A DNA stretch of 64,000 nt from NCBI RefSeq assembly GCF_964019385.1, contig NW_027044937.1, positions 19,244-83,243 on the forward strand, read 5' to 3'. The position numbers and the translations under genes are program-made. This document shows positions 21,701-61,102 of the stretch, piece after piece (the first letter of the stretch is position 1; each line of letters opens with the position of its first letter). The notes beneath the pieces are model-generated. The model was not told where the DNA came from. It did no database searches and saw nothing but the letters and a program-made list of their open reading frames with translations. The DNA is from Sycon ciliatum (lineage: Eukaryota > Porifera > Calcarea > Leucosolenida > Sycettidae).

Positions 21701-21725
21701 AGGATCAGTCTTCTACGTTCAGCCT

Positions 21726-22495: not shown

Positions 22496-22666
22496 GTCGT
22501 CATCCCAGCAGAGGCCGTTCAATATTTTCTTCAGACTTCGTAACTCACACTTCCTGTGAATCCACACAGGCGGGTGGGACGCAGCCCTCACTGTAACCCA
22601 CACACTTCACGTACAAACTAGCACGCGGGGAGCCCCAAGTCATAAAATAATAATAATAATAATAAT

Positions 22667-23395
22667 ACGAAGTAGTGGTTGCGACTTCGGCGATGATTTG
22701 TAAGAAATGGTTTGCTCCCCACACCGGAGCTCGCGCTATTCCGCCGACTTTGGTAACCCTTTCTTACAAATCATCGCCGAAGTCGCAACCACTACTTCGT
22801 ACTGTTGTGCCCAGCGCGGGCTTGCGACTAGTTGGTTTGGAGGTGACAGCGTTGCGAATGACCGAGGGTCCTCGACGTCTGTCTCACCGTCCAGGAGCGA
22901 CACTGACTCACGCTCCTATCTGGTGTTCACGAGGTGTTTGTCGCGCTTGAAACGGAGCGTCTCTGTAAGTTTGTATCCCTGGTGATGTTTGTGCCTGGAG
23001 AGCACTATATAAGTGGTGCTCTTCAGGCACAATCTTCCTCAGCCTACTCAAGCTCAACTGATGAGGGGTGAATTCCCCGAAACACTGTGTATTGAGCAGG
23101 GAGTGGTGCTTTCTTGCAGGTTTGCCGAGTCGAAGGTTCGATGGACTTCTCGTGTGCTCTGGATGGCAGTCGTGAGTCAGTCAAGTGTCAAGTAAAGTCG
23201 GCGGAATAGCGCGAGCTCCGGTGTGGGGAGCAAACCATTTCTTACAAATAATAATAATAATAATAATAATAATAATTGTGAGTCAGTCAAGTGTCAAGTA
23301 AAGTCGGCGGAATAGCGCGAGCTCCGGTGTGGGGAGCAAACCCTTTCTTACAAATCATCGCCGAAGTCGCAACCGCTACTTAATAATAATAATAA
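22667..23395. repeat. Hammerhead family B foldback pieces separated by (TAA)n
   Basis: The sequence GAAGTAGTGGTTGCGACTTC..TTTGTAAGAAA appears inverted at 22740-22802 and again at 23280-23395. The middle holds the intact family B hammerhead. (TAA)n tracts lie at about 22646-22666, 23249-23276 and 23380-23396. Confidence 0.7.
23052..23097 (+). ncRNA. Hammerhead ribozyme, family B, intact
   Basis: Stem I GCTCAA (23052-23057) pairs with TTGAGC (23092-23097). CTGATGA is at 23058-23064, stem II GGGG/CCCC with loop TGAATT, GAAA at 23079-23082, stem III ACA/TGT with loop CTG, U16.1 at 23090 and A17 at 23091. Every conserved base is present. Predicted cleavage is after 23091. Confidence 0.9.
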
Positions 23396-24025: not shown

Positions 24026-24170
24026 CACACAAACCCAAACCTTGAACAAATTGTCATGTTGCGTGGTGATGTCTGCGGCATTCATACTTTTCATAGCTAT
24101 TAATAATAATAATAATTACCTGGTTTTGAGGGAAAGAGACAAACGGGAAAAGTCTGAAGAAAAAATCGAC

Positions 24171-24243
24171 TGTCACCACCAGGACTCGAACCAGGGACCC
24201 TCGCTTGTAGCCAGCGATGCTCTAACCACTGAGCTATGGTGTA
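24171..24243 (-). repeat. tRNA-like SINE head, type 2
   Basis: Third type 2 copy, again in minus orientation, with (TAA)n on both sides (24100-24116 and 24284-24313). Confidence 0.65.
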
Positions 24244-24441
24244 GTCGTCATCCAAGCAGAGACCGTTCAATGGTTCCTTCAGACTAATAATAATAGTAAT
24301 AATAATAATAATTAAAAAAGCTTACGTGGAGATAAAAATGTAATCAGCGCAATAAAACTTGTTTTCTGGCTTATGGTGTTTGTACTGAGTGCGCAGCTTA
24401 CTCTATTTATTGCGTTGAATAATAATAATAATAATAATAAT

Positions 24442-24706
24442 GTAGAAGAGAAAAGGACATATGGATACGAGTTAAGAGTAACTCTCCATCACTGTAACAT
24501 GATACTTTATACAGTCAGAAAGTGCAATAACTAGGCACAAAACTGACAGAGTACTGAAACATTCAACGTCCTGACACCTGTCAGTTTTGTGCCTAGTTAT
24601 TGCACTTTCTGACTGTATAAAGTATCATGTTACAGTGATGGAGAGTTACTCTTAACTCGTATCCATATGTCCTTTTCTCTTCTACATTTATTTATGGCTC
24701 AACATC
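24442..24706. repeat. Family A mini-foldback without hammerhead
   Basis: A short minus-orientation piece (AGAGTAACTCTCCATCACTG.. to CGTCCTGACACCT) directly joins its own plus-orientation copy. The central part of the unit and the ribozyme are deleted. (TAA)n lies on both sides. Confidence 0.75.
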
Positions 24707-24708
24707 CG

Positions 24709-24740
<32 letters not shown>

Positions 24741-42753: not shown

Positions 42754-42953
42754 NNNNNNNNNNNNNNNNNNNNNNNNNNNNNNNNNNNNNNNNNNNNNNN
42801 NNNNNNNNNNNNNNNNNNNNNNNNNNNNNNNNNNNNNNNNNNNNNNNNNNNNNNNNNNNNNNNNNNNNNNNNNNNNNNNNNNNNNNNNNNNNNNNNNNNN
42901 NNNNNNNNNNNNNNNNNNNNNNNNNNNNNNNNNNNNNNNNNNNNNNNNNNNNN
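42754..42953. other. Assembly gap (200 N)
   Basis: Runs of N only. Frames crossing it are meaningless. Confidence 1.
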
Positions 42954-42971: not shown

Positions 42972-43003
<32 letters not shown>

Positions 43004-43005
<2 letters not shown>

Positions 43006-46000
43006 TAAAAGAGAAAAGGACATATGGATACGAGTTAAGAGTAACTCTCCATCACTGTAACATGATACTATATACAGTCAGAAAGTGCAATAACTAGGCA
43101 CAAAACTGACAGAGTACTGAGACATTCGACGTCCTGACACCTAACTTCAACACATCTCCGTAGCGCTAACCGACAGCCTTCCAACTTGGAAGGTTCAAGG
43201 TTATGGAAAGACCAAAGAGGGGAAGGCAAGCGCAACGAAAACGAGCAAAAGCTACAGTCCCAACGGAACAAAGAATGTCGATTGTTACTGGACGATGACG
43301 AGACCAGTACGATATTTGACAAAGCGGTCTAACTACAATTCGAAGCAGCAAAGCAGCACACCACCCAACTTGGGTGGGTCATAAATATCAAAGATAAGTA
43401 AAGAAAGGGAAGCTTTGCGAAAACGAATTGTACAAGCCGAAAGCCAAAATCCTACAGTACTCCTCATGCATGACATTGTGATGGACTAGTTGACTACAAA
43501 ACAAGTTGTTTCACACGACGTACGTTTCGCCGTATGGTTCGTGACGGCTCATCAGGTGTGCAATTTGAAACTCGGATGTTGAGCCATAAATAAATGTAAA
43601 AGAGAAAAGGACATATGGATACGAGTTAAGAGTAACTCTCCATCACTGTAACATGATACTATATACAGTCAGAAAGTGCAATAACTAGGCACAAAACTGA
43701 CAGAGTACTGAGACATTCGACGTCCTGACACCTAACTTCAACACATCTCCGTAGCGCTAACCGACAGCCTTCCAACTTGGAAGGTTCAAGGTTATGGAAA
43801 GACCAAAGAGGGGAAGGCAAGCGCAACGAAAACGAGCAAAAGCTACAGTCCCAACGGAACAAAGAATGTCGATTGTTACTGGACGATGACGAGACCAGTA
43901 CGATATTTGACAAAGCGGTCTAACTACAATTCGAAGCAGCAAAGCAGCACACCACCCAACTTGGGTGGGTCATAAATATCAAAGATAAGTAAAGAAAGGG
44001 AAGCTTTGCGAAAACGAATTGTACAAGCCGAAAGCCAAAATCCTACAGTACTCCTCATGCATGACATTGTGATGGACTAGTTGACTACAAAACAAGTTGT
44101 TTCACACGACGTACGTTTCGCCGTATGGTTCGTGACGGCTCATCAGGTGTGCAATTTGAAACTCGGATGTTGAGCCATAAATAAATGTAAAAGAGAAAAG
44201 GACATATGGATACGAGTTAAGAGTAACTCTCCATCACTGTAACATGATACTATATACAGTCAGAAAGTGCAATAACTAGGCACAAAACTGACAGAGTACT
44301 GAGACATTCGACGTCCTGACACCTAACTTCAACACATCTCCGTAGCGCTAACCGACAGCCTTCCAACTTGGAAGGTTCAAGGTTATGGAAAGACCAAAGA
44401 GGGGAAGGCAAGCGCAACGAAAACGAGCAAAAGCTACAGTCCCAACGGAACAAAGAATGTCGATTGTTACTGGACGATGACGAGACCAGTACGATATTTG
44501 ACAAAGCGGTCTAACTACAATTCGAAGCAGCAAAGCAGCACACCACCCAACTTGGGTGGGTCATAAATATCAAAGATAAGTAAAGAAAGGGAAGCTTTGC
44601 GAAAACGAATTGTACAAGCCGAAAGCCAAAATCCTACAGTACTCCTCATGCATGACATTGTGATGGACTAGTTGACTACAAAACAAGTTGTTTCACACGA
44701 CGTACGTTTCGCCGTATGGTTCGTGACGGCTCATCAGGTGTGCAATTTGAAACTCGGATGTTGAGCCATAAATAAATGTAAAAGAGAAAAGGACATATGG
44801 ATACGAGTTAAGAGTAACTCTCCATCACTGTAACATGATACTATATACAGTCAGAAAGTGCAATAACTAGGCACAAAACTGACAGAGTACTGAGACATTC
44901 GACGTCCTGACACCTAACTTCAACACATCTCCGTAGCGCTAACCGACAGCCTTCCAACTTGGAAGGTTCAAGGTTATGGAAAGACCAAAGAGGGGAAGGC
45001 AAGCGCAACGAAAACGAGCAAAAGCTACAGTCCCAACGGAACAAAGAATGTCGATTGTTACTGGACGATGACGAGACCAGTACGATATTTGACAAAGCGG
45101 TCTAACTACAATTCGAAGCAGCAAAGCAGCACACCACCCAACTTGGGTGGGTCATAAATATCAAAGATAAGTAAAGAAAGGGAAGCTTTGCGAAAACGAA
45201 TTGTACAAGCCGAAAGCCAAAATCCTACAGTACTCCTCATGCATGACATTGTGATGGACTAGTTGACTACAAAACAAGTTGTTTCACACGACGTACGTTT
45301 CGCCGTATGGTTCGTGACGGCTCATCAGGTGTGCAATTTGAAACTCGGATGTTGAGCCATAAATAAATGTAAAAGAGAAAAGGACATATGGATACGAGTT
45401 AAGAGTAACTCTCCATCACTGTAACATGATACTATATACAGTCAGAAAGTGCAATAACTAGGCACAAAACTGACAGAGTACTGAGACATTCGACGTCCTG
45501 ACACCTAACTTCAACACATCTCCGTAGCGCTAACCGACAGCCTTCCAACTTGGAAGGTTCAAGGTTATGGAAAGACCAAAGAGGGGAAGGCAAGCGCAAC
45601 GAAAACGAGCAAAAGCTACAGTCCCAACGGAACAAAGAATGTCGATTGTTACTGGACGATGACGAGACCAGTACGATATTTGACAAAGCGGTCTAACTAC
45701 AATTCGAAGCAGCAAAGCAGCACACCACCCAACTTGGGTGGGTCATAAATATCAAAGATAAGTAAAGAAAGGGAAGCTTTGCGAAAACGAATTGTACAAG
45801 CCGAAAGCCAAAATCCTACAGTACTCCTCATGCATGACATTGTGATGGACTAGTTGACTACAAAACAAGTTGTTTCACACGACGTACGTTTCGCCGTATG
45901 GTTCGTGACGGCTCATCAGGTGTGCAATTTGAAACTCGGATGTTGAGCCATAAATAAATGTAAAAGAGAAAAGGAAATATAGATACGAGTTAAGAGTTAC

Positions 46001-48827
46001 TCTCCATCACTGTAACATGATACTATATACAGTCAGAAAGTGCAATAACTAGGCACAAAACTGACAGAGTACTGAGACATTCGACGTCCTGACACCTAAC
46101 TTCAACACATCTCCGTAGCGCTAACCGACAGCCTTCCAACTTGGAAGGTTCAAGGTTATGGAAAGACCAAAGAGGGGAAGGCAAGCGCAACGAAAACGAG
46201 CAAAAGCTACAGTCCCAACGGAACAAAGAATGTCGATTGTTACTGGACGATGACGAGACCAGTACGATATTTGACAAAGCGGTCTAACTACAATTCGAAG
46301 CAGCAAAGCAGCACACCACCCAACTTGGGTGGGTCATAAATATCAAAGATAAGTAAAGAAAGGGAAGCTTTGCGAAAACGAATTGTACAAGCCGAAAGCC
46401 AAAATCCTACAGTACTCCTCATGCATGACATTGTGATGGACTAGTTGACTACAAAACAAGTTGTTTCACACGACGTACGTTTCGCCGTATGGTTCGTGAC
46501 GGCTCATCAGGTGTGCAATTTGAAACTCGGATGTTGAGCCATAAATAAATGTAAAAGAGAAAAGGACATATGGATACGAGTTAAGAGTAACTCTCCATCA
46601 CTGTAACATGATACTATATACAGTCAGAAAGTGCAATAACTAGGCACAAAACTGACAGAGTACTGAGACATTCGACGTCCTGACACCTAACTTCAACACA
46701 TCTCCGTAGCGCTAACCGACAGCCTTCCAACTTGGAAGGTTCAAGGTTATGGAAAGACCAAAGAGGGGAAGGCAAGCGCAACGAAAACGAGCAAAAGCTA
46801 CAGTCCCAACGGAACAAAGAATGTCGATTGTTACTGGACGATGACGAGACCAGTACGATATTTGACAAAGCGGTCTAACTACAATTCGAAGCAGCAAAGC
46901 AGCACACCACCCAACTTGGGTGGGTCATAAATATCAAAGATAAGTAAAGAAAGGGAAGCTTTGCGAAAACGAATTGTACAAGCCGAAAGCCAAAATCCTA
47001 CAGTACTCCTCATGCATGACATTGTGATGGACTAGTTGACTACAAAACAAGTTGTTTCACACGACGTACGTTTCGCCGTATGGTTCGTGACGGCTCATCA
47101 GGTGTGCAATTTGAAACTCGGATGTTGAGCCATAAATAAATGTAAAAGAGAAAAGGACATATGGATACGAGTTAAGAGTAACTCTCCATCACTGTAACAT
47201 GATACTATATACAGTCAGAAAGTGCAATAACTAGGCACAAAACTGACAGAGTACTGAGACATTCGACGTCCTGACACCTAACTTCAACACATCTCCGTAG
47301 CGCTAACCGACAGCCTTCCAACTTGGAAGGTTCAAGGTTATGGAAAGACCAAAGAGGGGAAGGCAAGCGCAACGAAAACGAGCAAAAGCTACAGTCCCAA
47401 CGGAACAAAGAATGTCGATTGTTACTGGACGATGACGAGACCAGTACGATATTTGACAAAGCGGTCTAACTACAATTCGAAGCAGCAAAGCAGCACACCA
47501 CCCAACTTGGGTGGGTCATAAATATCAAAGATAAATAAAGAAAGGGAAGCTTTGCGAAAACGAATTGTACAAGCCGAAAGCCAAAATCCTACAGTACTCC
47601 TCATGCATGACATTGTGATGGACTAGTTGACTACAAAACAAGTTGTTTCACACGACGTACGTTTCGCCGTATGGTTCGTGACGGCTCATCAGGTGTGCAA
47701 TTTGAAACTCGGATGTTGAGCCATAAATAAATGTAAAAGAGAAAAGGACATATGGATACGAGTTAAGAGTAACTCTCCATCACTGTAACATGATACTATA
47801 TACAGTCAGAAAGTGCAATAACTAGGCACAAAACTGACAGAGTACTGAGACATTCGACGTCCTGACACCTAACTTCAACACATCTCCGTAGCGCTAACCG
47901 ACAGCCTTCCAACTTGGAAGGTTCAAGGTTATGGAAAGACCAAAGAGGGGAAGGCAAGCGCAACGAAAACGAGCAAAAGCTACAGTCCCAACGGAACAAA
48001 GAATGTCGATTGTTACTGGACGATGACGAGACCAGTACGATATTTGACAAAGCGGTCTAACTACAATTCGAAGCAGCAAAGCAGCACACGACCCAACTTG
48101 GGTGGGTCATAAATATCAAAGATAAGTAAAGAAAGGGAAGCTTTGCGAAAACGAATTGTACAAGCCGAAAGCCAAAATCCTACAGTACTCCTCATGCATG
48201 ACATTGTGATGGACTAGTTGACTACAAAACAAGTTGTTTCACACGACGTACGTTTCGCCGTATGGTTCGTGACGGCTCATCAGGTGTGCAATTTGAAACT
48301 CGGATGTTGAGCCATAAATAAATGTAAAAGAGAAAAGGACATATGGATACGAGTTAAGAGTAACTCTCCATCACTGTAACATGATACTATATACAGTCAG
48401 AAAGTGCAATAACTAGGCACAAAACTGACAGAGTACTGAGACATTCGACGTCCTGACACCTAACTTCAACACATCTCCGTAGCGCTAACCGACAGCCTTC
48501 CAACTTGGAAGGTTCAAGGTTATGGAAAGACCAAAGAGGGGAAGGCAAGCGCAACGAAAACGAGCAAAAGCTACAGTCCCAACGGAACAAAGAATGTCGA
48601 TTGTTACTGGACGATGACGAGACCAGTACGATATTTGACAAAGCGGTCTAACTACAATTCGAAGCAGCAAAGCAGCACACCACCCAACTTGGGTGGGTCA
48701 TAAATATCAAAGATAAGTAAAGAAAGGGAAGCTTTGCGAAAACGAATTGTACAAGCCGAAAGCCAAAATCCTACAGTACTCCTCATGCATGACATTGTGA
48801 TGGACTAGTTGACTACAAAACAAGTTG
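43004..48827 (-). repeat. Family A retrozyme-like array, ten 591-bp units
   Basis: Landmarks repeat at exactly 591-bp steps (for example 43068, 43659, 44250, to 48387). The units are nearly identical; one differs around 45974-45998. The tenth unit stops at 48827 before its hammerhead. There is no conserved protein: the 84- and 61-codon frames in each unit are overlapping by-products. (TAA)n lies at 42971-43004. Predicted self-cleavage of a multimer transcript would release 591-nt monomers. Confidence 0.9.
43512..43560 (-). ncRNA. Hammerhead ribozyme, family A (array 1, nine copies)
   Basis: Minus strand: stem I CACAC, CTGATGA, stem II GCCGT/ACGGC with loop CACGAACCAT, GAAA, stem III CG/CG around TA, cleavage triplet GTC, stem I GTGTG. 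All conserved core bases match the type-I hammerhead consensus. Further copies start at 44103, 44694, 45285, 45876, 46467, 47058, 47649 and 48240. Predicted cleavage in this copy lies between 43517 and 43516. The self-complementary CGTACG stem III is very short, so cleavage as a dimer is likely. Confidence 0.93.
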
Positions 48828-49000
48828 GTGTTAGGTGTCAGGACGTCGAATGTCTCAGTACTCTGTCAGTTTTGTGCCTAGTTATTGCACTTTCTGACTG
48901 TATATAGTATCATGTTACAGTGATGGAGAGTTACTCTTAACTCGTATCCATATGTCCTTTTCTCTTTTACATTTATTTATGGCTCAACATCCGAGTTTCA
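48828..49000 (+). repeat. Family A inverted stub closing array 1
   Basis: Plus-orientation partial unit from GTGTTAGGTGTCAGGACGTC to GAGTTTCAAA, then (TAA)n. It makes the whole of array 1 a foldback. Confidence 0.8.
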
Positions 49001-49080
49001 AATAATAATAATAATAATAATAATAATACTCATAAAAAGGACACACTTCAGGCTCATTACAAACATCTTGAAAGTTTTTG

Positions 49081-49120
49081 TCTTCACAAGTATACTTTCA
49101 AGCCTTCTCATCAGGTGAAA
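49081..49120 (-). ncRNA. Hammerhead ribozyme, family F, left arm
   Basis: Minus strand: TTCAC, CTGATGA, GAAGGCTT (weak stem II), GAAA, stem III AGTATACT, U17, GTGAA. The core is complete. Stem II is minimal. Confidence 0.65.
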
Positions 49121-49518
49121 TACAGGCAAGGGAAAAGGAACAGGAACAGTGGATTAAATACAGTAAGAAGGTGGTAAAACAGCGCAAAAAGAAAGAAAGA
49201 AAGAAAGAAGATAGCTAAAGTAAACAGCGAAAATTGCAATAATGACACAAAGGTGCAAATGCGAGAAAACTCAATAAGCGCGACATGTAGTGCGACAACA
49301 AGAGACAACCACTGGACATACATGTAACTAACGAGGTTTTGACGACCTACCTAACAGCCTAAGTGTGAATTTGATTTGTTTCTGCTTGCAAAGGTTGGGT
49401 TTCCTTGTGTGGATGTATACTTTAGCTATCTTCTTTCTTTCTTTCTTTCTTTTTGCGCTGTTTTACCACCTTCTTACTGTATTTAATCCACTGTTCCTGT
49501 TCCTTTTCCCTTGCCTGT

Positions 49519-49559
49519 ATTTCACCTGATGAGAAGGCTTGAAAGTATACTTGTGAAGA
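49519..49559 (+). ncRNA. Hammerhead ribozyme, family F, right arm
   Basis: Plus-strand copy: TTCAC 49521-49525, CTGATGA 49526-49532, GAAA 49541-49544, U16.1 49551, U17 49552, GTGAA 49553-49557. Confidence 0.65.
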
Positions 49560-49643
49560 CAAAAACTTTCAAGATGTTTGTAATGAGCCTGAAGTGTGTC
49601 CTTTTTATGAGTATTATCGCATTTTTGTCTCAGAGGAAACTGT

Positions 49644-49675
<32 letters not shown>

Positions 49676-49679
<4 letters not shown>

Positions 49680-51822
49680 TAAAAGAGAAAAGGACACATG
49701 GTTACGAGTTAAGAGTAACTCTCCATCACTGTAACATGATACTATATACAGTCAGAAAGTGCAATAACTAGGCACAAAACTGACAGAGTACTGAGACATT
49801 CGACGTCCTGACACCTAACTTCAACACATCTCCGTAGCGCTAACCGACAGCCTTCCAACTTGGAAGGTTCAAGGTTATGGAAAGACCAAAGAGGGGAAGG
49901 CAAGCGCAACGAAAACGAGCAAAAGCTACAGTCCCAACGGAACAAAGAATGTCGATTGTTACTGGACGATGACGAGACCAGTACGATATTTGACAAAGCG
50001 GTCTAACTACAATTCGAAGCAGCAAAGCAGCACACCACCCAACTTGGGTGGGTCATAAATATCAAAGATAAGTAAAGAAGGGGAAGCTTTGCGAAAACGA
50101 ATTGTACAAGCCGAAAGCCAAACTCCTACAGTACTCCTCATGCATGACATTGTGATGGACTAGTTGACTACAAAACAAGTTGTTTCACACGACGTACGTT
50201 TCGCCGTATGGTTCGTGACGGCTCATCAGGTGTGCAATTTGAAACTCGGATGTTGAGCCATAAATAAATGTAAAAGAGAAAAGGACACATGGTTACGAGT
50301 TAAGAGTAACTCTCCATCACTGTAACATGATACTATATACAGTCAGAAAGTGCAATAACTAGGCACAAAACTGACAGAGTACTGAGACATTCGACGTCCT
50401 GACACCTAACTTCAACACATCTCCGTAGCGCTAACCGACAGCCTTCCAACTTGGAAGGTTCAAGGTTATGGAAAGACCAAAGAGGGGAAGGCAAGCGCAA
50501 CGAAAACGAGCAAAAGCTACAGTCCCAACGGAACAAAGAATGTCGATTGTTACTGGACGATGACGAGACCAGTACGATATTTGACAAAGCGGTCTAACTA
50601 CAATTCGAAGCAGCAAAGCAGCACACCACCCAACTTGGGTGGGTCATAAATATCAAGGATAAGTAAAGAAGGGGAAGCTTTGCGAAAACGAATTGTACAA
50701 GCCGAAAGCCAAACTCCTACAGTACTCCTCATGCATGACATTGTGATGGACTAGTTGACTACAAAACAAGTTGTTTCACACGACGTACGTTTCGCCGTAT
50801 GGTTCGTGACGGCTCATCAGGTGTGCAATTTGAAACTCGGATGTTGAGCCATAAATAAATGTAAAAGAGAAAAGGACACATGGTTACGAGTTAAGAGTAA
50901 CTCTCCATCACTATAACATGATACTATATACAGTCAGAAAGTGCAATAACTAGGCACAAAACTGACAGAGTACTGAGACATTCGACGTCCTGACACCTAA
51001 CTTCAACACATCTCCGTAGCGCTAACCGACAGCCTTCCAACTTGGAAGGTTCAAGGTTATGGAAAGACCAAAGAGGGGAAGGCAAGCGCAACGAAAACGA
51101 GCAAAAGCTACATTGCAGTCCCAACGGAACAAAGAATGTCGATTGTTACTGGACGATGACGAGACCAGTACGATATTTGACAAAGCGGTCTAACTACAAT
51201 TCGAAGCAGCAAAGCAGCACACCACCCAACTTGGGTGGGTCATAAATATCAAAGATAAGTAAAGAAGGGGAAGCTTTGCGAAAACGAATTGTACAAGCCG
51301 AAAGCCAAACTCCTACAGTACTCCTCATGCATGACATTGTGATGGACTAGTTGACTACAAAACAAGTTGTTTCACACGACGTACGTTTCGCCGTATGGTT
51401 CGTGACGGCTCATCAGGTGTGCAATTTGAAACTCGGATGTTGAGCCATAAATAAATGTAAAAGAGAAAAGGACACATGGTTACGAGTTAAGAGTAACTCT
51501 CCATCACTGTAACATGATACTATATACAGTCAGAAAGTGCAATAACTAGGCACAAAACTGACAGAGTACTGAGACATTCGACGTCCTGACACCTAACTTC
51601 AACACATCTCCGTAGCGCTAACCGACAGCCTTCCAACTTGGAAGGTTCAAGGTTATGGAAAGACCAAAGAGGGGAAGGCAAGCGCAACGAAAACGAGCAA
51701 AAGCTACAGTCCCAACGGAACAAAGAATGTCGATTGTTACTGGACGATGACGAGACCAGTACGATATTTGACAAAGCGGTCTAACTACAATTCGAAGCAG
51801 CAAAGCAGCACACCACCCAACT
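49676..51822 (-). repeat. Family A array 2, minus-orientation part
   Basis: About 3.6 units at 591-bp steps; the third has a five-base insertion (ATTGC) near 51113. The subtype differs slightly from array 1 (ACACATGGTTACGAG versus ACATATGGATACGAG), so the arrays were homogenised separately. Confidence 0.9.
50186..50234 (-). ncRNA. Hammerhead ribozyme, family A (array 2, three copies)
   Basis: Identical to the array 1 ribozyme. Further copies at 50777-50825 and 51373-51421. Confidence 0.93.
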
Positions 51823-52839
51823 TTATAACTTTTGATATTTATGACCCACCCAAGTTGGGTGGTGTGCTGCTTTGCTGCTTCGAATTGTAGTTAGACCGCT
51901 TTGTCAAATATCGTACTGGTCTCGTCATCGTCCAGTAACAATCGACATTCTTTGTTCCGTTGGGACTGTAGCTTTTGCTCGTTTTCGTTGCGCTTGCCTT
52001 CCCCTCTTTGGTCTTTCCATAACCTTGAACCTTCCAAGTTGGAAGGCTGTCGGTTAGCGCTACGGAGATGTGTTGAAGTTAGGTGTCAGGACGTCGAATG
52101 TCTCAGTACTCTGTCAGTTTTGTGCCTAGTTATTGCACTTTCTGACTGTATATAGTATCATGTTACAGTGATGGAGAGTTACTCTTAACTCGTAACCATG
52201 TGTCCTTTTCTCTTTTACATTTATTTATGGCTCAACATCCGAGTTTCAAATTGCACACCTGATGAGCCGTCACGAACCATACGGCGAAACGTACGTCGTG
52301 TGAAACAACTTGTTTTGTAGTCAACTAGTCCATCACAATGTCATGCATGAGGAGTACTGTAGGAGTTTGGCTTTCGGCTTGTACAATTCGTTTTCGCAAA
52401 GCTTCCCCTTCTTTACTTATCTTTGATATTTATGACCCACCCAAGTTGGGTGGTGTGCTGCTTTGCTGCTTCGAATTGTAGTTAGACCGCTTTGTCAAAT
52501 ATCGTACTGGTCTCGTCATCGTCCAGTAACAATCGACATTCTTTGTTCCGTTGGGACTGTAGCTTTTGCTCGTTTTCGTTGCGCTTGCCTTCCCCTCTTT
52601 GGTCTTTCCATAACCTTGAACCTTCCAAGTTGGAAGGCTGTCGGTTAGCGCTACGGAGATGTGTTGAAGTTAGGTGTCAGGACGTCGAATGTCTCAGTAC
52701 TCTGTCAGTTTTGTGCCTAGTTATTGCACTTTCTGACTGTATATAGTATCATGTTACAGTGATGGAGAGTTACTCTTAACTCGTAACCATGTGTCCTTTT
52801 CTCTTTTACATTTATTTATGGCTCAACATCCGAGTTTCA
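51823..52839 (+). repeat. Family A array 2, plus-orientation part
   Basis: After a short centre (TATAACTTTTGATATTTATG) the array turns to plus orientation for about 1.7 units, ending at GAGTTTCAAA before (TAA)n. Confidence 0.9.
52254..52302 (+). ncRNA. Hammerhead ribozyme, family A, plus strand
   Basis: CACAC 52254-52258, CTGATGA 52259-52265, cleavage after GTC at 52297, GTGTG 52298-52302. Confidence 0.93.

Positions 52840-52876
<37 letters not shown>
52840..52876. repeat. (TAA)n tract at the 5' edge of the Dong-like LINE
   Basis: A pure TAA run between family A and the LINE; a matching run lies at the element's 3' end. Confidence 0.95.
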
Positions 52877-52879
<3 letters not shown>

Positions 52880-55800
52880 TTCGCTAATTATCAAAAAATA
52901 CCTTACATCGGTGGAGCAGGAGGAGATAGCCCGTCAGTTGGTGCAGCGTGGCGAGTTGCCTGTTGAGTTCATGACGCGCTTTGGCTGTGTGGTCCAGTTG
53001 CCTGCTACGACTAGTCAGGGTCCTGAATCTGTCAGTGCGTCTTCCACCGGCGCTGTTTCCCTGGATTCGGCTGCTGGGTTACCTGATGGTCCTGGCGCCT
53101 ATTTCACTGACACTGACAGCGAACCGCCAGCCTCTCTTGCACGTGATCATGTAGAATATTCCGCCTGCACCGATTCCGTTGACTCTGGTCCCAGTGTGCT
53201 AGTAAACGATGGCCTTGACACGTGCGCCGGCGTTCCACCGAGCTTGCTCCGTGTGTTTGCTGCTGGGCCTCTGCCTTCATGTACTGAGTACTCCAGCACT
53301 GCGGGTGATGATGCATCATGTATTGAATCTGTCTATGCACACTCTGTGGGTAGTCCAGTGGCCTGCGTGCGTCCACAGGCTGTTTATGGCCTGGCAGGAC
53401 CTCAGCCACCTGCGGAGGGCGACTTTGCTCCCAGTGGATCAACGCCTACTGTGGATGGATCGGCTGTTGGAGTGCCTGAAACAGAGCAAAGTCACTGCAC
53501 AAGGGAGACGCCTTGTTCGCCTTGTAGTAATTCCAACCCTGATAAGCTTGGAGGCATTCTAACCAATCTCAGTGAATCTGGTATTCTGGGCCCTGGTGGT
53601 TTGAGTATGGATCTGGAGTGGTCAATCAGGCACCTCTGCATCAATCGCAAAATAACCACACCTGGTGACGTTGCCAGACCTCTGAGCGGTGTTTTAGTTG
53701 GAGTACAGAGCTTGCAGTTGACAGGTCGGCCAAGACTCACTGTCCCCAGAAAGGTCCCTAGCCGTGCACTTTCCAGCAATGTTGCCTTGGTCAACGGTGG
53801 CATGAGACTGTTCCTGTCGGGTTTACCCCTACCTCTGTCTTTGGAATTCGCCAATCAGCTCACCTATGCAGCGGCGGTGCTGGTCTTGGTGGTGTCTGGT
53901 GTTGCACCTTGCCGTTTGAGTGGTGGTGATCATGGGAGGGAGACTGCGCCAGGCTGGTTGTTGCGGATACAACGCAAAATTGAGAATGTGAGGAAAGACG
54001 TGTCGCGCCTCACAAGTTTCATCCAAGCTGGAAACCCAAGATTGTTCACCAGATATCCTGTCAAGAGCAGTGATGAGGCCGCGGCTCTACTCGAAAGCAA
54101 GAAAATGGAGCTGCTGGCGCTTTCCGCCAGAATCAGACGGTATAAGGATAACATCAAGAGAAAACAACAGAATCAGGTATTCAGAGAGAACGAGCGCCAG
54201 TTCTACCGCTCTCTGGGGACACAGGAGGCTGACTGCAGTGACCAGACGCGGCCTGGTATGGGGGCGTTGCATGATTTTTGGTCAGGCATCTGGTCCGAGC
54301 CATTTGCGGTGAGCAGACATGGATGGATTGAACGGGAGGCTCTTGCCTATCAAGATGTCCAGCCACAAGAGGATGCAGTCATAACGCCGGAGTTGTTCCA
54401 ACTGGCAGTTGGAAGGATGCCTCACTGGCGTGCTGCTGGGCCTGACAACATCAGACCATTCTGGTTGAAGAAGTTTAGTGCACTGCATCCTGCCTTGCTT
54501 CGCATATTCCAGCAGCTGTTGGATTCGGAAGTCGTGCCACCGCCCTGGTTCTCCCTTGGTGCAACCGTACTCCTACCGAAGAAAGGTGATCTGTCGAAAC
54601 CCCAGAACTGGAGACCTATAACCTGCCTGCCTTCTATGTATAAACTTTTCACATCTGTAGTATCGGAGCTTATGTGGTCTCACATCACCGCTAACAGTCT
54701 GCTGGCCCCGGAACAGGTCGGATGTGCACGTGGCCGAGGAGGATGCACAGATCAGTTGTTGATCAACAACATGATTATTGAAGATGCCAAATGCCACCAG
54801 CGCTCCCTCAGCATGGCATGGCTAGACTTCCGAAAGGCCTTCGATAGCCTTTCCCAAGAGTGGATCTGGGAAATTGCTACCATCTACAAGTTCGATCCTA
54901 GGATCATCCGCACACTCCAAACGCTGTCGGAGCAATGGAGCACACAACTGTGCCTTAGCAGCGGGGTCAGCGAGCCAATATCCATCCGACGGGGTATCTT
55001 CCAGGGTGATTCTCTGTCTCCCCTGCTGTTCTGCATCGGTCTCAACCCAATCTCAAACGAATTAGCAAGAAGCGGCATAGGATATCGTTGTGGACCCACG
55101 CGTGATTCCCTGTTGTCGCATCTATGGTACATGGATGACGTCAAGCTATTTGCCGCTAGCAGTACTGGACTGGACTCCTTGATCAACATTGTGGAGTGCG
55201 TTGGTGGGGCGGTTGGCATGCAACTATCCCCCACTAAGTGCTCGAAGATTGTCTGCCCGGCCGCTAAGCCAACCCAGGATGCAGAGCCTTCGTCAACCTT
55301 GCTAACAGAGTCGATCATTCATCCTCTGCAAGATGGCGCGGCGTACCTCTACCTTGGCCTGCGGGAATTCCTGGGAATCGAGGCTGGTGAAGTTAAACAA
55401 TCTGCCATCGCTGAGTTCCGTCGCCGTCTTCGCTTGATCATGGATGCTTCCCTATGTGCACCAAACCTCATCAGAGCAATCAACACCTACGTTCTGCCAG
55501 TGGTGTCCTATGGCCTTGGCACAGTCGTTCCTTGGACTGCGGATGAGCTCCGCTCGCTGGACAGGACAGTGAGGAAGGCTCTGACTGCTAGCAGGGCCCA
55601 CCACCCACGTGCCTCAATCCGTCGCCTATATCTACCGCGGAGTGAGGGAGGTCGTGGCCTAGTATGCATCGTAGATCTCCATGACCGTACTTGCATCCGG
55701 CTCGCTCAGTACCTGAAGGATCGGGAAGATGTCCCTGCCCTGGCCGCTGTTCTCCAGCACCATGAATCACGTCCCTCTAGAAAATCAATACCAAAGCTGG

Positions 55801-57104
55801 CAAATACTGTCCTGCAGCGCCTTCGCCTGACGAGCCTGGACACCGCTAACAAAGAGACTGTTAAACAGGCCCTCAATGACAACCGCCGCCGTGAACTTCG
55901 AGCGATACCTCTTCATGGTCGCTATTGGGCGCGTGTTGATGGCATCCTGGACATGCAGCTCTCGTTTTCCTGTTTCAGATCCCAGACAATGCGTCCTGAA
56001 ACGGAAGGCTTTCTCATTGCTTGCCAGGATCAGGTGATTGCCACGAGAAACAATATGCGCCATATCCACAAGAGGCATGATGTCGTGGACCTCTGTCGTG
56101 TATGTGGTGCACCCGGAGAAAATATGGACCACATCATCGCCTGCTGTCCAGCCCTGGCACGGACTGCATACATTGCCCGGCATAACTTTGTGGTCCAGGC
56201 CCTGCATCGTGCGCTGTGTAAGCAGCATGGATTACCCAGCAGTAAGCAGCTGGTGCAGGTCACAAGTTCTGCCAGTTGCAAGCTGATGTGGGAGATTTCC
56301 ATTCCCACAGATCGAGTAATAAAAGCGAACAGACCAGACCTGGTGCTGGTTCTGGATGATCGGGCACTGCTCTTGGACGTCAGTGTCCCATTGGACCACA
56401 GGGTCAATGAGAAGGTGCAGGAGAAGATCAGCAAATACCTGCCCTTGGCAGCAGAGCTGAGGAGGATCTGGAACAAAAAGATAACTATTGTTCCAGTTAT
56501 CATTGGTGCTCTGGGTGGTGTGTCAGGAACGAGCCGCAGCCACATCTTAAGCCTTGGGCTCCACGCGTCCGTGATCCAGCGGCTGCAGCAATGTGCTATT
56601 CTGGGCACCCTGAGAATTGTGCGGTCGGTGACTGGTCATGGATGGGAGAGTGGCATGGTCGGAACGGTCGGTTGACCTTATGTTAGCCTGCCCGTAATGT
56701 CTCGACGTGTCTCAGTCTGTGTGTTTTATGATTGTGGTGCATCATGTGCTGTGTGACGAGCCGAGAGGCGTGAATTTCTGCCATATGCCCCCAGTCATGT
56801 ATTGTCTTTCTCTGCATATGCCGTTTTATCTCGTCTGAGTTTGTCTTGCTTGGAGTGTCCCATGTGCAGCATGCTTGGTGTTTACTACTTGAGTAGTTCT
56901 GTTATACATGACTGTGATTTTATGTGAGCATCGAAGTTGGTATACTTGAATTTTTCTCTCATGAAGTTTATCAAAATTTGGTTCAGGATTTTCTTTTATC
57001 TTCATTGATTGGTGCTTCACCCTTGGGTCATATGGATCCCGGTGCTGTGCTTCATGCCTCCTTTCAAGCTTTCTTTTTCTGCTTTGGGAGTGAATAAAGT
57101 CGTC
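52877..57104 (+). mobile_element. Dong/R4-type LINE inserted in (TAA)n
   Basis: One long ORF, a 3' UTR of about 430 bases ending GTGAATAAAGTCGTCA, and (TAA)n on both sides. The 5' UTR is only about 35 bases. Dong elements of the R4 clade are known to insert into TAA repeats, which fits the flanks. Confidence 0.8.
52911..56675 (+). CDS. Dong/R4-type LINE polyprotein: reverse transcriptase plus REL endonuclease
   Basis: An unbroken frame of 1254 codons counted from a GTG at 52911. The frame is open back to 52878, with no earlier ATG; the first ATG is at 52971 (residue 21), so the true start is unsure. The N-terminal 330 residues are Ser/Pro-rich without a clear zinc finger. The RT has WRPITCLPSMYKLF, LDFRKAFD (D639), RRGIFQGDSLSPLLF and YMDD (740-743) within LWYMDDVKLFAAS, as in R4/Dong/HERO elements. 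A CCHC knuckle (C1062, C1065, H1074, C1078/1079) and a PD-(D/E)xK nuclease (RPDLVL 1141-1146; D1156 in LLLDVSVP; then KVQEKISKY) form the restriction-like endonuclease. It appears intact. Confidence 0.88.
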   Translation: MEQEEIARQLVQRGELPVEFMTRFGCVVQLPATTSQGPESVSASSTGAVSLDSAAGLPDGPGAYFTDTDSEPPASLARDHVEYSACTDSVDSGPSVLVNDGLDTCAGVPPSLLRVFAAGPLPSCTEYSSTAGDDASCIESVYAHSVGSPVACVRPQAVYGLAGPQPPAEGDFAPSGSTPTVDGSAVGVPETEQSHCTRETPCSPCSNSNPDKLGGILTNLSESGILGPGGLSMDLEWSIRHLCINRKITTPGDVARPLSGVLVGVQSLQLTGRPRLTVPRKVPSRALSSNVALVNGGMRLFLSGLPLPLSLEFANQLTYAAAVLVLVVSGVAPCRLSGGDHGRETAPGWLLRIQRKIENVRKDVSRLTSFIQAGNPRLFTRYPVKSSDEAAALLESKKMELLALSARIRRYKDNIKRKQQNQVFRENERQFYRSLGTQEADCSDQTRPGMGALHDFWSGIWSEPFAVSRHGWIEREALAYQDVQPQEDAVITPELFQLAVGRMPHWRAAGPDNIRPFWLKKFSALHPALLRIFQQLLDSEVVPPPWFSLGATVLLPKKGDLSKPQNWRPITCLPSMYKLFTSVVSELMWSHITANSLLAPEQVGCARGRGGCTDQLLINNMIIEDAKCHQRSLSMAWLDFRKAFDSLSQEWIWEIATIYKFDPRIIRTLQTLSEQWSTQLCLSSGVSEPISIRRGIFQGDSLSPLLFCIGLNPISNELARSGIGYRCGPTRDSLLSHLWYMDDVKLFAASSTGLDSLINIVECVGGAVGMQLSPTKCSKIVCPAAKPTQDAEPSSTLLTESIIHPLQDGAAYLYLGLREFLGIEAGEVKQSAIAEFRRRLRLIMDASLCAPNLIRAINTYVLPVVSYGLGTVVPWTADELRSLDRTVRKALTASRAHHPRASIRRLYLPRSEGGRGLVCIVDLHDRTCIRLAQYLKDREDVPALAAVLQHHESRPSRKSIPKLANTVLQRLRLTSLDTANKETVKQALNDNRRRELRAIPLHGRYWARVDGILDMQLSFSCFRSQTMRPETEGFLIACQDQVIATRNNMRHIHKRHDVVDLCRVCGAPGENMDHIIACCPALARTAYIARHNFVVQALHRALCKQHGLPSSKQLVQVTSSASCKLMWEISIPTDRVIKANRPDLVLVLDDRALLLDVSVPLDHRVNEKVQEKISKYLPLAAELRRIWNKKITIVPVIIGALGGVSGTSRSHILSLGLHASVIQRLQQCAILGTLRIVRSVTGHGWESGMVGTVG

Positions 57105-57128
57105 ATAATAATAATAATAATAATAATT
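57105..57128. repeat. (TAA)n tract at the 3' edge of the Dong-like LINE
   Basis: Directly follows GTCGTCA and precedes the tRNA-like array. Confidence 0.9.
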
Positions 57129-57202
57129 TGGAAAGGATGGGAGAACTTCAAATTCAAAGGATCAGTCGGGGAAGTGAACTGCCTGAAAAGAGAAAAAAAC
57201 GC

Positions 57203-57274
57203 CAGACCCACCAGGACTCGAACCTGGGACCCTGCTTGTCATGAGCAATGCTCTAACCACTGAGCTATGGGACC
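57203..57274 (-). repeat. tRNA-like head, type 1
   Basis: Same cloverleaf as 20821-20892, with an intact A box and B box on the minus strand. Confidence 0.7.
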
Positions 57275-57508
57275 AGGCTGAACCTAGAAGGCGCTGACAA
57301 GTTTTTCACTCCAAAGGCAGCTCACAACACGTGCCACACATACTGATGGCACTTGGGTCTTTTTCCCTCCCCCAGGGGACCAACCACGGTCAGTTTCTGG
57401 AAACTACCAGAGGTGAAAGAAAGTGATTAAATTTGGAAAGGATGGGAGAACTTCAAATTCAAAGGGATCAGTCGGGGAAGTGAACTGCCTGAAAAGAGAA
57501 AAAAACGC

Positions 57509-57580
57509 CACACCCACCAGGACTCGAACCTGGGACCCTGCTTGTCATGAGCAATGCTCTAACCACTGAGCTATGGGACC
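57509..57580 (-). repeat. tRNA-like head, type 1
   Basis: The acceptor 3' strand carries one change (CACACCCA on the plus strand). Confidence 0.7.
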
Positions 57581-57813
57581 AGGCTGAACCTAGAAGGCGC
57601 TGACAAGTTCTTCACTCCAAAGGCAGCTCACAACACGTGCCACACATACTGATGGCACTTGGGTCTTTTTCCCTCCCCCAGGGGACCTACCACGGTCAGT
57701 TTCTGGAAACTACCAGAGGTGAAAGAAAGTGATTAAATTTGGAAAGGATGGGAGAACTTCAAATTCAAAGGATCAGTCGGGGAAGTGAACTGCCTGAAAA
57801 GAGAAAAAAACGC

Positions 57814-57886
57814 CAGACCCACCAGGACTCGAACCTGGGACCCCTGCTTGTCATGAGCAATGCTCTAACCACTGAGCTATGGGACC
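57814..57886 (-). repeat. tRNA-like head, type 1
   Basis: Has one extra C in the GGGACCCC run (variable region). Confidence 0.65.
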
Positions 57887-58127
57887 AGGCTGAACCTAGA
57901 AGGCGCTGACAAGTTTTCACTCCAAAGCAGCTCACAACACGTGCCACATATACTGATGGCACTTGGGTCTTTTTCCCTCCCCCAGGGGACCAACCACGGT
58001 CAGTTCTGGAACTACCAGAGGTGAAAGAAAGTGATTAAATTTGGAAAGGATGGGAGAACTTCAAATTCAAAGGATCAGTCGGGGAAGTGAACTGCCTGAA
58101 AAGGAAAAAAACGCCAGACCCACCACC

Positions 58128-58199
58128 GAGCCCTCCAACTATCGACCGATATCGCTACTCAGCGTGACGTCGAAAGTACAAGAGAGGATAGTTGTTGTC
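58128..58199 (+). pseudogene. RT scrap at the centre of the tRNA-like foldback
   Basis: The frame reads PSNYRPISLLSVTSKVQERI, the conserved finger-region motif of LINE reverse transcriptases. Only about 70 bases are present, exactly between the minus and plus halves of the array. Confidence 0.6.
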
Positions 58200-58220
58200 A
58201 GCGCCTTCTAGGTTCAGCCT

Positions 58221-58292
58221 GGTCCCATAGCTCAGTGGTTAGAGCATTGCTCATGACAAGCAGGGTCCCAGGTTCGAGTCCTGGTGGGTCTG
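58221..58292 (+). repeat. tRNA-like head, type 1
   Basis: Plus strand, followed by a T-rich tract (GTTTTTTTCTCTTTT) that may end Pol III transcription. Confidence 0.7.
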
Positions 58293-58523
58293 GCGTTTTT
58301 TTCTCTTTTCAGGCAGTTCACTTCCCGACTGATCCTTTGAATTTGAAGTCTCCCATCCTTTCCAAATTTAATCACTTTCTTTCACCTCTGGTAGTTTCCA
58401 GAAACTGACCGTGGTTGGTCCCCTGGGGAGGGAAAAAGACCCAAGTGCCATCAGTATGTGTGGCACGTGTGTGTGAGCTGCCTTTGGAGTGAAAAACTTG
58501 TCAGCGCCTTCTAGGTTCAGCCT

Positions 58524-58595
58524 GGTCCCATAGCTCAGTGGTTAGAGCATTGCTCATGACAAGCAGGGTCCCAGGTTCGAGTCCTGGTGGGTCTG
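58524..58595 (+). repeat. tRNA-like head, type 1
   Basis: Second plus-strand unit; T tract shortened by one base. Confidence 0.7.
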
Positions 58596-58827
58596 GCGTT
58601 TTTTCTCTTTTCAGGCAGTTCACTTCCCCGACTGATCCTTTGAATTTGAAGTTCTCCCATCCTTTCCAAATTTAATCACTTTCTTTCACCTCTGGTAGTT
58701 TCCAGAAACTGACCGTGGTTGGTCCCCTGGGGGAGGGAAAAAGACCCAAGTGCCATCAGTATGTGTGGCACGTGTTGTGAGCTGCCTTTGGAGTGAAAAA
58801 CTTGTCAGCGCCTTCTAGGTTCAGCCT

Positions 58828-58899
58828 GGTCCCATAGCTCAGTGGTTAGAGCATTGCTCATGACAAGCAGGGTCCCAGGTTCGAGTCCTGGTGGGTCTG
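58828..58899 (+). repeat. tRNA-like head, type 1
   Basis: Third plus-strand unit, just before the array is cut by (TAA)n. Confidence 0.7.
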
Positions 58900-58945
58900 G
58901 CGTTTTTTTCTCTTTTCAGGCAGTTCACTTCCCCGACTGATCCTT

Positions 58946-59167
<222 letters not shown>

Positions 59168-59189
59168 GTGGAAGAGAAAAAAAAAAAAA

Positions 59190-59660
59190 AAAAAAAAAAA
59201 ACATATGGATACGAGTTAAGAGTAACTCTCCATCACTGTGACATGGTACTATATACAGTCAGAAAGTGCAATAACTAGGCACAAACTGACAGAGTACTGA
59301 AACATTCGACGTCCTGACACCTAGCTTCAACACATCTCCGTAGCGCTAACCGACAGCCTTCCAACTTGGAAGGTTCAAGGTTATGGAAAGACCAAAGAGG
59401 GAAGGCAAGCGCAACGAAAACGAGCAAAAGCTACAGTCCCAACGGAACAAAGAATGTCGATTGTTACTGGACGATGACGAGACCAGTACGATATTTGACA
59501 GAGCGGTCTAACTACAATTCGAAGCAGCAAAGCAGCACACCACCCAACTTGGTGGGTCATAAATATCAAAGATAAGTAAAGAAAGGGAAGCTTTGCGAAA
59601 ACGAATTGTACAGCCGAAAGTCAAACTCCTACAGTACTCCTCATGCATGACATTGTGATA
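59190..59660 (-). repeat. Family A array 3, minus-orientation start
   Basis: A partial unit without hammerhead, preceded by a long A run (the complement of the T run in the plus units), turning to plus at about 59661. Confidence 0.85.
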
Positions 59661-60096
59661 TTTATGACCCACCCAAGTTGGGTGGTGTGCTGCTTTGCTG
59701 CTTCGAATTGTAGTTAGACCGCTCTGTCAAATATCGTACTGGTCTCGTCATCGTCCAGTAACAATCGACATTCTTTGTTCCGTTGGGACTGTAGCTTTTG
59801 CTCGTTTTCGTTGCGCTTGCCTTCCCCTCTTTGGTCTTTCCATAACCTTGAACCTTCCAAGTTGGAAGGCTGTCGGTTAGCGCTACGGAGATGTGTTGAA
59901 GCTAGGTGTCAGGACGTCGAATGTTTCAGTACTCTGTCAGTTTTGTGCCTAGTTATTGCACTTTCTGACTGTATATAGTACCATGTCACAGTGATGGAGA
60001 GTTACTCTTAACTCGTATCCATATGTTTTTTTTTTTTTTTTTTTTTTTTTTTCTCTTCCACATTTATTTATGGCTCAACATCCGAGTTTCAAATTG

Positions 60097-60145
60097 CACA
60101 CCTGATGAGCCGTCACGAACCATACGGCGAAACGTACGTCGTGTG
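60097..60145 (+). ncRNA. Hammerhead ribozyme, family A (array 3, six copies)
   Basis: Core and stems identical to arrays 1 and 2 although the rest of the unit has diverged. Further copies at 61195-61243, 61804-61852, 62414-62462, 63027-63075 and 63638-63686. Confidence 0.93.
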
Positions 60146-60622
60146 AAACAACTTGTTTTGTAGTCAACTAGTCCATCACAATGTCATGCATGAGGAGTAC
60201 TGTAGGAGTTTGACTTTCGGCTTGTACAATTCGTTTTCGCAAAGCTTCCCTTTCTTTACTTATCTTTGATATTTATGACCCACCCAAGTTGGGTGGTGTG
60301 CTGCTTTGCTGCTTCGAATTGTAGTTAGACCGCTCTGTCAAATATCGTACTGGTCTCGTCATCGTCCAGTAACAATCGACATTCTTTGTTCCGTTGGGAC
60401 TGTAGCTTTTGCTCGTTTTCGTTGCGCTTGCCTTCCCCTCTTTGGTCTTTCCATAACCTTGAACCTTCCAAGTTGGAAGGCTGTCGGTTAGCGCTACGGA
60501 GATGTGTTGAAGCTAGGTGTCAGGACGTCGAATGTTTCAGTACTCTGTCAGTTTTGTGCCTAGTTATTGCACTTTCTGACTGTCTATAGTACCATGTCAC
60601 AGTGATGGAGAGTTACTCTTAA

Positions 60623-61102
60623 CCCATTGAACGCTTATGACGTCTATAGACGTCATTGAAAATGCCCCCCATGCGCGGGATGACGTCTATAGACGTCATG
60701 GGATATATAGTGATTTCTGGCACTGTCTGGTGTGTAAAAGCACTGTTAGTCAGTTGGATCATGAACCTGCCTCTTGTACGATAGGTCGTTGATACGAATC
60801 CCGCCTGGAAACACTACGCGTCTTTTTTTCTTCTCTTTTCAGCGATCTTTCAGCTGCAATTTCACGCATTTGGCGTATTTCACGCAATTTGAGCAAACTT
60901 GCGTCCCCTATTGTGAGGCGCTATTCTTTTGGGGGACTGTATCGATTCTGTCACCCTGTGGTTGATAGTCTTGGCAATTATTTCCAAAATATTTGAGGAC
61001 CCCAGTTGACAGAACCCTGGAGTTTTAGAACTTGCTATTGGCCTTGTTTTTAGCATTTTATATGCAGAGTACCATAGGCAAGGCCCAGTAGCGCTGAATG
61101 GG
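60623..61102. mobile_element. piggyBac-type MITE inside a family A unit
   Basis: TTAA at 60619-60622 and 61103-61106; ends CCCATTGAACGCT and complement CCCATTCAGCGCT. The sequence TGACGTCTATAGACGTCA occurs twice near the left end as a perfect palindrome. Neighbouring units show the empty site (TACTCTTAACTCG). Non-coding. Confidence 0.85.

Follow-up and report, generated by a model that had tools for sequence, protein, structure and literature searches.

A 591-bp hammerhead retrozyme of the sponge Sycon ciliatum with a head-to-head insertion footprint resembling that of Penelope-like elements

How a repeat that encodes no protein comes to be scattered through a genome, and which enzyme puts it there, is the question raised by a stretch of DNA from the calcareous sponge Sycon ciliatum (assembly GCF_964019385.1, contig NW_027044937.1, positions 19,244 to 83,243; 64,000 nucleotides, hereafter the window), in which tandem arrays of a 591-bp unit carry a hammerhead ribozyme motif. 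We read this element as a large non-coding animal retrozyme, inserted by the machinery of Penelope-like elements (PLEs) from one RNA circle, and give this reading a probability of roughly 80%. The type I hammerhead, non-coding tandem units, low GC content, dispersed insertions, single-unit template, and foreign-element footprint, all read from sequence, support its assignment to the animal retrozymes. PLEs have been proposed as mobilizers of such retrozymes on the grounds of co-occurrence and shared features (PMC7229834; PMC7761336), and a review of December 2024 still names long interspersed nuclear elements (LINEs) or PLEs (PMC11722881); here and below, statements on published systems refer to the available portions of the cited papers. 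The new content suggested by our results is an integration footprint that ties the retrozyme to PLE-type machinery. No report of paired or twin priming of retrozymes was found in the open-access literature (titles and abstract openings, preprints outside the scope), and in the available portion of PMC7229834 we met no description of two-armed head-to-head insertions with paired start sites.

Head-to-head arms with two different ends

The preliminary description reported 591-bp tandem arrays at positions 43004-52839. The 591-bp units are present and run head to tail within arms, as unit mapping confirmed, but the two-ended insertion anatomy had been overlooked, and the stretch in fact holds two insertions, one at 43002-49003 and the other at 49676-52842, with (AAT)n and an unrelated palindromic element lying between them. 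In each, a minus arm (9.86 and 3.63 units, respectively) meets a plus arm (0.30 and 1.71 units) head to head. With unit positions numbered from the hammerhead cleavage site, and outer ends classed as site A (500-524) or site B (536-550), the long arm of insertion 1 (43002-48827, minus strand, units of 591 bp) has its outer left end at site A (~513-515), and the short arm (48824-49003, plus strand), which overlaps it by 4 bp at the inversion, ends at site B (~545). In insertion 2, the left arm (49676-51823, minus strand) ends at site A and the right arm (51831-52842, plus strand), which shares 3/3 of the left arm's rare variants, at site B. The sequence read places an (AAT)n target to the left of insertion 1 (42972-43004) and (AAT)n to its right (49001-49028), and a (TAA)n target to the left of insertion 2 (49645-49678) with (AAT)n to its right (52840-52877). 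The palindromic element between them (49029-49644) has two arms of ~190 bp and (AAT)n on both sides, and a run of 200 N (42754-42953) lies immediately left of insertion 1.

The unit was mapped onto the window and 30 loci fetched from the 538-Mb genome, the only genome compared, and then onto two more (32 loci and the window). The animal character of this genome is borne out by 55 matches to Wnt, an animal-specific family, against none in 14 control genomes. All 41 two-arm insertions examined pass from a minus into a plus arm with the RNA 3' ends outward. One outer end at site A (~513-519; RNA ..CTTTTAC/A, the slash marking the end) and the other at site B (~543-546; RNA ..GTTTCAAAT/T), ~28-30 nt apart, characterize 33 of the 41 (31/41 strictly; the loose cases are locus L043, ~12 nt short of A, and the copy at 24439 of the window, ~9 nt short of B). 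A/A or B/B pairs were found in 0/41; if the site were chosen freely at p = 0.5, the chance would be near 2^-33, a figure that indicates scale only. The hairpin around the A/B region is weak (z -1.26).

Loci L009-L028 were fetched with a query spanning an inversion, which may have biased them towards two-arm copies; a plain-unit query and a ribozyme-pattern query were added against this bias, and their loci gave the same picture. At the ten plain-unit loci, the main insertion was two-armed in nine, all of them with one A and one B end (L043 loosely). Arm grouping cuts at each plus-then-minus step by rule, and a rule-free mapping shows one such step (L045), formed by two insertions split by 39 bases of (AAT)n. 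Six single-arm groups were left uncounted: L038 360-471 (76% match), L039 from 3513 (cut by the locus end), L045 2808-3037, L046, and those at 18959 and 61147 of the window, which are continuations of interrupted insertions. On chromosome C1, for which statistics were taken over the first 100 ribozyme places among the matches listed, these places form 57 clusters, and the adjacent opposite-strand pairs no more than 3 kb apart are six in minus-then-plus and one in plus-then-minus order, the last (L039) being two insertions divided by (AAT)n.

AAT-type runs of at least four triplets adjoin both ends in 24/39 insertions, one end in 9/39, and neither in 6/39. Target duplications were recognized by eye at seven targets (L017, L019, L023, L025, L027, L042, and L057) and were not clear by eye in L009, L011, L012, L043, and L046; their length is 11-12 bp when bases ambiguous between target and unit end are counted and at least 9 without them. 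Since both arms carry the duplication at their primer ends, the cut would have left 3' overhangs of about the duplication length (9-12). At the inversion point, one to four bases are shared in 20/39 cases and none in 5/39, frequencies that have no chance control, while extra bases occur in 8/39 and an overlap of at least 12 in 6/39. Four insertions (L025, L028, L042, and L043) contain an extra internal break.

The unit, its hammerhead, and further copies

The core CTGATGA / GAAA / GTC, which had been claimed for every complete unit, is complete in 13/13 copies of the 43004-52839 span, with the ribozyme on the minus strand in 12 of them. The Rfam family RF00163 (Hammerhead type I) matches all 13 places, although each at 26.8 bits and below the gathering score of 34. 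In insertion 1, the nine minus-strand copies lie at 43511-43561 (predicted cleavage between 43517 and 43516), 44102-44152, 44693-44743, 45284-45334, 45875-45925, 46466-46516, 47057-47107, 47648-47698, and 48239-48289; in insertion 2, three minus-strand copies (50185-50235, 50776-50826, and 51372-51422) are followed by one in the plus arm (52253-52303, plus strand). Within 42900-64000 the family gives 19 matches, each of 26.8 bits (E 0.0084), which appear with an E-value threshold only; at the gathering score no hammerhead is reported anywhere in the window. In the window the heptamer CTGATGA was counted 41 times where 10.1 were expected (0/100 shuffles as high), and a genome-wide scan for the exact 39-base ribozyme pattern gave 499 + 535 = 1,034 places, with 0 + 0 for the reversed control pattern.

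Same-strand ribozyme neighbors no more than 3 kb apart, among the first 100 listed, are spaced by 591 (16), 592 (11), 593 (4), or 596 (2) bases, with spacings of 626, 1,551, and 2,824 bases found once each. GC content is 0.37-0.45 per kb across 43-53 kb. No stop-to-stop open reading frame (ORF) of at least 110 aa starts between 43098 and 52877, by which the unit is judged non-coding. Neither a long terminal repeat (LTR), a primer binding site, nor a polypurine tract was seen in the sequence read, in which no search aimed at the latter two was made.

Calling the hammerhead perfect, as was done initially, overstated the case. Stems I (CACAC/GTGTG) and II (GCCGT/ACGGC) are accompanied by a helix III of 2 bp around GTAC, a palindromic tetraloop, and the hammerhead fold of a single copy is not its best one. 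Two copies paired through the palindromic stem III reach -32.4 kcal/mol, compared with -28.4 for two monomers each in its best fold, and the best dimer fold, at -37.5, lies below the stem-III-paired hammerheads. The paired-copy energies fit animal hammerheads that cleave as dimers, although modeled energies of this kind, which omit tertiary contacts, prove nothing. Axolotl hammerheads belong to this dimer-cleaving animal class, and the axolotl Amex2 hammerhead shares the weak helix III (2 bp plus tetraloop; PMC7229834). The preliminary description further suggested selection on the ribozyme, which was not established: hammerhead variants are lower than elsewhere both per insertion (9/1,742 positions vs. 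198/20,105) and per unit (16/5,537 vs. 661/76,078), but on the per-insertion count 32% of the equally long windows elsewhere show no more variation than the hammerhead.

As a "large animal retrozyme" the element is supported by its anatomy, and its size is only a modest novelty. Metazoan non-LTR retrozymes likewise combine a type I hammerhead, short non-coding tandems, GC below 50%, and many dispersed copies, in units of 150-450 bp (PMC7229834), a range that 591 bp exceeds; however, hammerhead-bearing repeats of ~500 bp are known from cave crickets (PMC2837043), so that size alone adds little. That repeat, Dolichopoda pDo500, is described as a satellite whose hammerhead varies less than the remainder of the unit (PMC2837043), a difference that our data do not establish. 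Plant LTR retrozymes resemble the present element in hammerhead-processed circular RNA intermediates, of 600-800 nt, and differ in a type III hammerhead inside LTRs, 4-bp duplications, and Gypsy-type mobilization (PMC4918200, as described in PMC7229834).

The window holds further copies of the retrozyme. A third young insertion ("array 3"; 59178-60623), with a minus arm at 59178-59659, a plus arm from 59656, and an RF00163 hammerhead at 60096-60146, is interrupted by another element at 60624-61106 and continues on the plus strand at 61147-64000 with five hammerheads and units of ~609-613 bp that include a poly-T tract. It differs from array 1 by ~3-5%, the poly-T tract included. Its units (61126-63590) have a T-rich run of ~24-30 bases before the start-site region that the 591-bp units do not have, and the interrupting element, of ~480 bp, contains the repeated sequence GACGTCTATAGACGTCAT. 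An older two-arm copy with A and B ends (15949-16971) is 93% identical, its hammerhead unchanged, and another (17752-19013) has its left end at B, is interrupted at 18483-18958, resumes at 18959, and ends at A; the ~476-bp element within it has terminal inverted repeats (AGGCCTTGACAGATTATGCTA). A short two-arm copy with A and B ends lies at 24439-24709.

One template and a candidate enzyme

For the template comparison, only arms with 97.5% identity or more were used (36 insertions, 169 passes), a restriction that replaced a count of rare variants (33/115 in both arms) lowered by old copies and by a poorly aligned L025 arm (51 variants, none shared). Two units of the same arm differ by 0.21%, units taken from the two arms of an insertion by 0.23%, and units of separate insertions by 0.89%. 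For 23 pairs, the true pairing of arms gives 0.15%, compared with a lowest value of 0.48% in 2,000 random pairings, so that both arms and all their turns look copied from one single-unit template. More than one unit is present in 42/88 arms, over a range of <0.1 to 9.86 turns, and most arrays keep to one unit length, which changes from array to array (590, 591, 592, and 593). The 78 inner breakpoints are evenly spread (Kolmogorov-Smirnov p 0.19), with 4 no more than 12 nt from the cleavage site against 3.3 expected; breakpoints that ignore this site fit a circle, whereas a linear cut monomer would stop there. Together, these sequence features support the copying of a putative circular RNA.

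As for the enzyme, the window contains a PLE fragment in (AAT)n (19023-20726) with two inverted arms, whose 3' ends lie at two start sites 61 nt apart, and with a GIY-YIG-like endonuclease ORF (19616-20152, minus strand). This ORF has relatives throughout the genome, where 150 out of 2,392 candidates were scored, and YRDD and a GIY-YIG-like region are retained in three full PLE frames, each of a different family, the second and third being 51% and 74% identical to the first. The PLEs of this genome are arranged head to head, their 3' ends falling at either of two sites (217 or 278 of the query): opposite-strand neighbors no more than 8 kb apart stand in minus-then-plus order in 15/15 cases among the 150 scored endonuclease matches, the two sites are divided between the two ends, one each, in 5/5 copies whose ends were both read (window, L030/L031, L032, L047, and L049), and duplications of ~12-14 bp were found at two of these five. 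The motif (A)AAGG[AC] was seen by eye, with no chance control, in the cDNA strand near 6/7 start sites of the retrozyme, the tRNA-like unit described below, the PLE, and the element at 49029-49644, and is a possible recognition motif. Two hammerhead-like motifs were also noted by eye and were not reported by Rfam: CTGATGATTGGTTCAGCCATGAAACTCGGAGTC at 20648, in the 3' region of the PLE fragment, and CTGATGAGGGGTGAATTCCCCGAAACACTGTGTATTGAG at 23058, within a palindromic element in (AAT)n (22667-23380).

This anatomy agrees with what is published on PLEs. The purified Anolis PLE (Poseidon PAc) cuts 5'-ATT-3' on both strands and extends both, begins to reverse-transcribe the RNA at two neighboring internal sites, which explains the 30-40 bp "tail", and does not need hammerhead cleavage for insertion (PMC11167929). 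In rotifers, most PLE copies take the head-to-head form; their duplications measure 8-10 bp, and one of the inverted ends bears a 31-bp tail (PMC3846280). Shared by the rotifer Pen and Anolis PAc elements and the retrozyme are inverted head-to-head arms, AT-rich or ATT targets, minimal hammerheads, two adjacent start sites, and target duplications (8-10 bp in rotifers vs. 9-12 bp here) (PMC3846280; PMC11167929). In contrast to PLEs, the retrozyme carries no protein, has many-unit arms from a single-unit template, and uses each site once in 33/41 insertions. We infer from the same anatomy in the PLEs of this genome and from the in vitro behavior of PLEs that the enzyme is probably of PLE type. 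The retrozyme itself behaves like a passenger of PLEs and not like a PLE: it encodes neither a reverse transcriptase nor a GIY-YIG endonuclease.

A second putative passenger is a tandem 304-bp unit with a tRNA-like domain (57125-58950; also 20740-21138 and 21687-22181), arranged in head-to-head arms in (AAT)n. Its intact tRNA-like fold is called tRNA-Ser UGA, and 297 matches were scored genome-wide; no ribozyme was reported in the unit by Rfam at E up to 10, and no CTGANGA core is present on either strand. Opposite-strand neighbors are head to head in 11/11 cases among the 96 listed matches used. Both ends were visible in nine two-arm insertions, among which six (L015, L028, L051, which is the window array at 57125, L052, L055, and L056) have ends at 122 and 148/149, ~26 nt apart, none uses the same site twice, and three (L021, L024, and window 21687-22181) have an end at neither. 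Differences amount to 1.23% within an arm, 1.36% between arms, and 1.51% between insertions. A 162-bp tandem unit by (AAT)n (22179-22497, with a further copy at 24161-24239) also has a tRNA-like domain, called tRNA-Pyl CUA by ARAGORN.

The LINE of the window, with an intact 1,265-aa reverse transcriptase ORF (52878-56675; RVT_1), lies between two (AAT)n runs and served as a control; it is presumably of the R4/Dong type. None of the 40 full, near-identical 3' copies listed (40 scored out of 154 candidates) has an opposite-strand neighbor within 8 kb, and the LINE looks to be single-ended in its use of the same microsatellite.

In the proposed mechanism, tandem transcripts would self-cleave at the hammerhead, which probably acts in pairs, since helix III is a 2-bp stem on the palindromic ACGTACGT, and the 591-nt monomer would be closed into a circle by a host ligase, both steps being deduced from the motif. 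A PLE reverse transcriptase/GIY-YIG endonuclease would then make staggered cuts, ~9-12 nt apart, in the two strands of an (AAT)n or AT-rich target. Both freed 3' ends would prime on the same RNA circle, one at A (~513) and the other at B (~543), each enzyme would travel round it for <0.1 to 9.9 turns, and at their stopping points the two cDNAs would be linked head to head. The postulated two-strand priming has support from the structure of the 41 two-arm insertions examined, and the travel round the circle and the linkage of the cDNAs are supported as well.

Alternatives, counter-evidence, and meaning

An uncut tandem transcript of an existing array could instead have served the same two-ended PLE machinery as template. 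Tandem arrays are present that could be transcribed, PLEs themselves form tandems, ribozyme-less tRNA-bearing arrays have the same insertion anatomy, and the Anolis PLE inserted inactive-hammerhead RNA in vitro, its authors favoring unprocessed RNA as the main substrate (PMC11167929). Nevertheless, the units and arms of one insertion are far more alike (0.21/0.23%) than those of separate insertions (0.89%), and unit length is mostly uniform per array and varies between arrays, as for a one-unit template, which leads us to regard this source as unlikely. It seems quite improbable that the R4/Dong-kind LINE (ORF 52878-56675), despite its shared microsatellite target and its 40 near-identical copies among the matches scored, moves the retrozyme: among the 40 full copies listed, none has an opposite-strand partner within 8 kb, AT-rich sites lacking a microsatellite run serve the retrozyme as targets too (6/39), with 9-12 bp duplications, and in a comparison made by eye only no shared LINE/retrozyme 3' end was seen.

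For the inversion of rotifer PLEs, self-priming by fold-back or an antisense template was proposed in 2013 (PMC3846280). Fold-back self-priming of one cDNA, or an antisense template, would produce head-to-head inverted repeats here too, but a fold-back has only one target-primed end, whereas both outer ends of the retrozyme are fixed, adjoin the target, and differ in 33/41 insertions; outer ends target-primed at different fixed sites point to two-ended target priming, and self-priming is a very remote prospect. Least credible is a plain satellite shaped by unequal exchange at the DNA level, palindrome formation, or assembly error, to which the tandem arrays of a short unit and the 200-base N run just left of insertion 1 would be congenial; set against it are the 57 separate clusters among the first 100 listed ribozymes, the target duplications, the fixed ends, and arm lengths and breakpoints that differ from insertion to insertion.

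Several observations weigh against retrozyme insertion by PLE machinery from an RNA circle. The cleavage and circle steps are read from DNA sequence, the single-copy hammerhead fold (-8.9 kcal/mol) is weaker than another fold (-14.2), homogenization between palindromic arms could mimic their similarity, and some arrays mix unit lengths (586, 584, and 596, each beside 591). Eight of the 41 insertions have an end at neither site: those at 17752 (interrupted, resuming to A) and 59178 (running off the window) are accounted for and L020 is N-masked, while L009, L012, L017, L022b, and L058 are unexplained; L046 is a genuine single-arm insertion. Regarding the enzyme, start sites are ~28-30 nt apart in the retrozyme vs. 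61-62 nt in the PLE family read, and the resemblance seen by eye between retrozyme and PLE sequence is limited to the short cDNA motif near most start sites. The PLE name is based on the YRDD and GIY-YIG-like motifs, recognized by eye, because Pfam gives GIY-YIG only weakly for the window ORF (E 0.014, below the cut-off). On the full PLE frames Pfam returned nothing useful and no reverse transcriptase match, PDB and NCBIfam searches with the PLE protein gave nothing usable, and the structure model of the window endonuclease ORF was unusable (predicted local distance difference test score of 34).

In the 2020 description and the 2024 review (PMC7229834; PMC11722881), LINEs or PLEs are named as candidate mobilizers of animal hammerhead retrozymes. 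The DNA footprint described here points to PLEs, and it yields exact predictions, namely two start positions, two strands, and a stagger of ~9-12 nt. It also bears on PLE integration, as the head-to-head form looks two-ended, with each member of the start-site pair used once. Tentatively, and with more doubt than confidence, we propose that a PLE complex may hold one RNA circle and two polymerase units at adjacent start sites, one for each cut strand, which would explain the optional PLE "tail", and that the same machinery may copy other circular or tandem RNAs, such as the ribozyme-less 304-nt tRNA-like units. If this is true, retrotransposition of circular RNA would be a general route and not a specialty of hammerheads.

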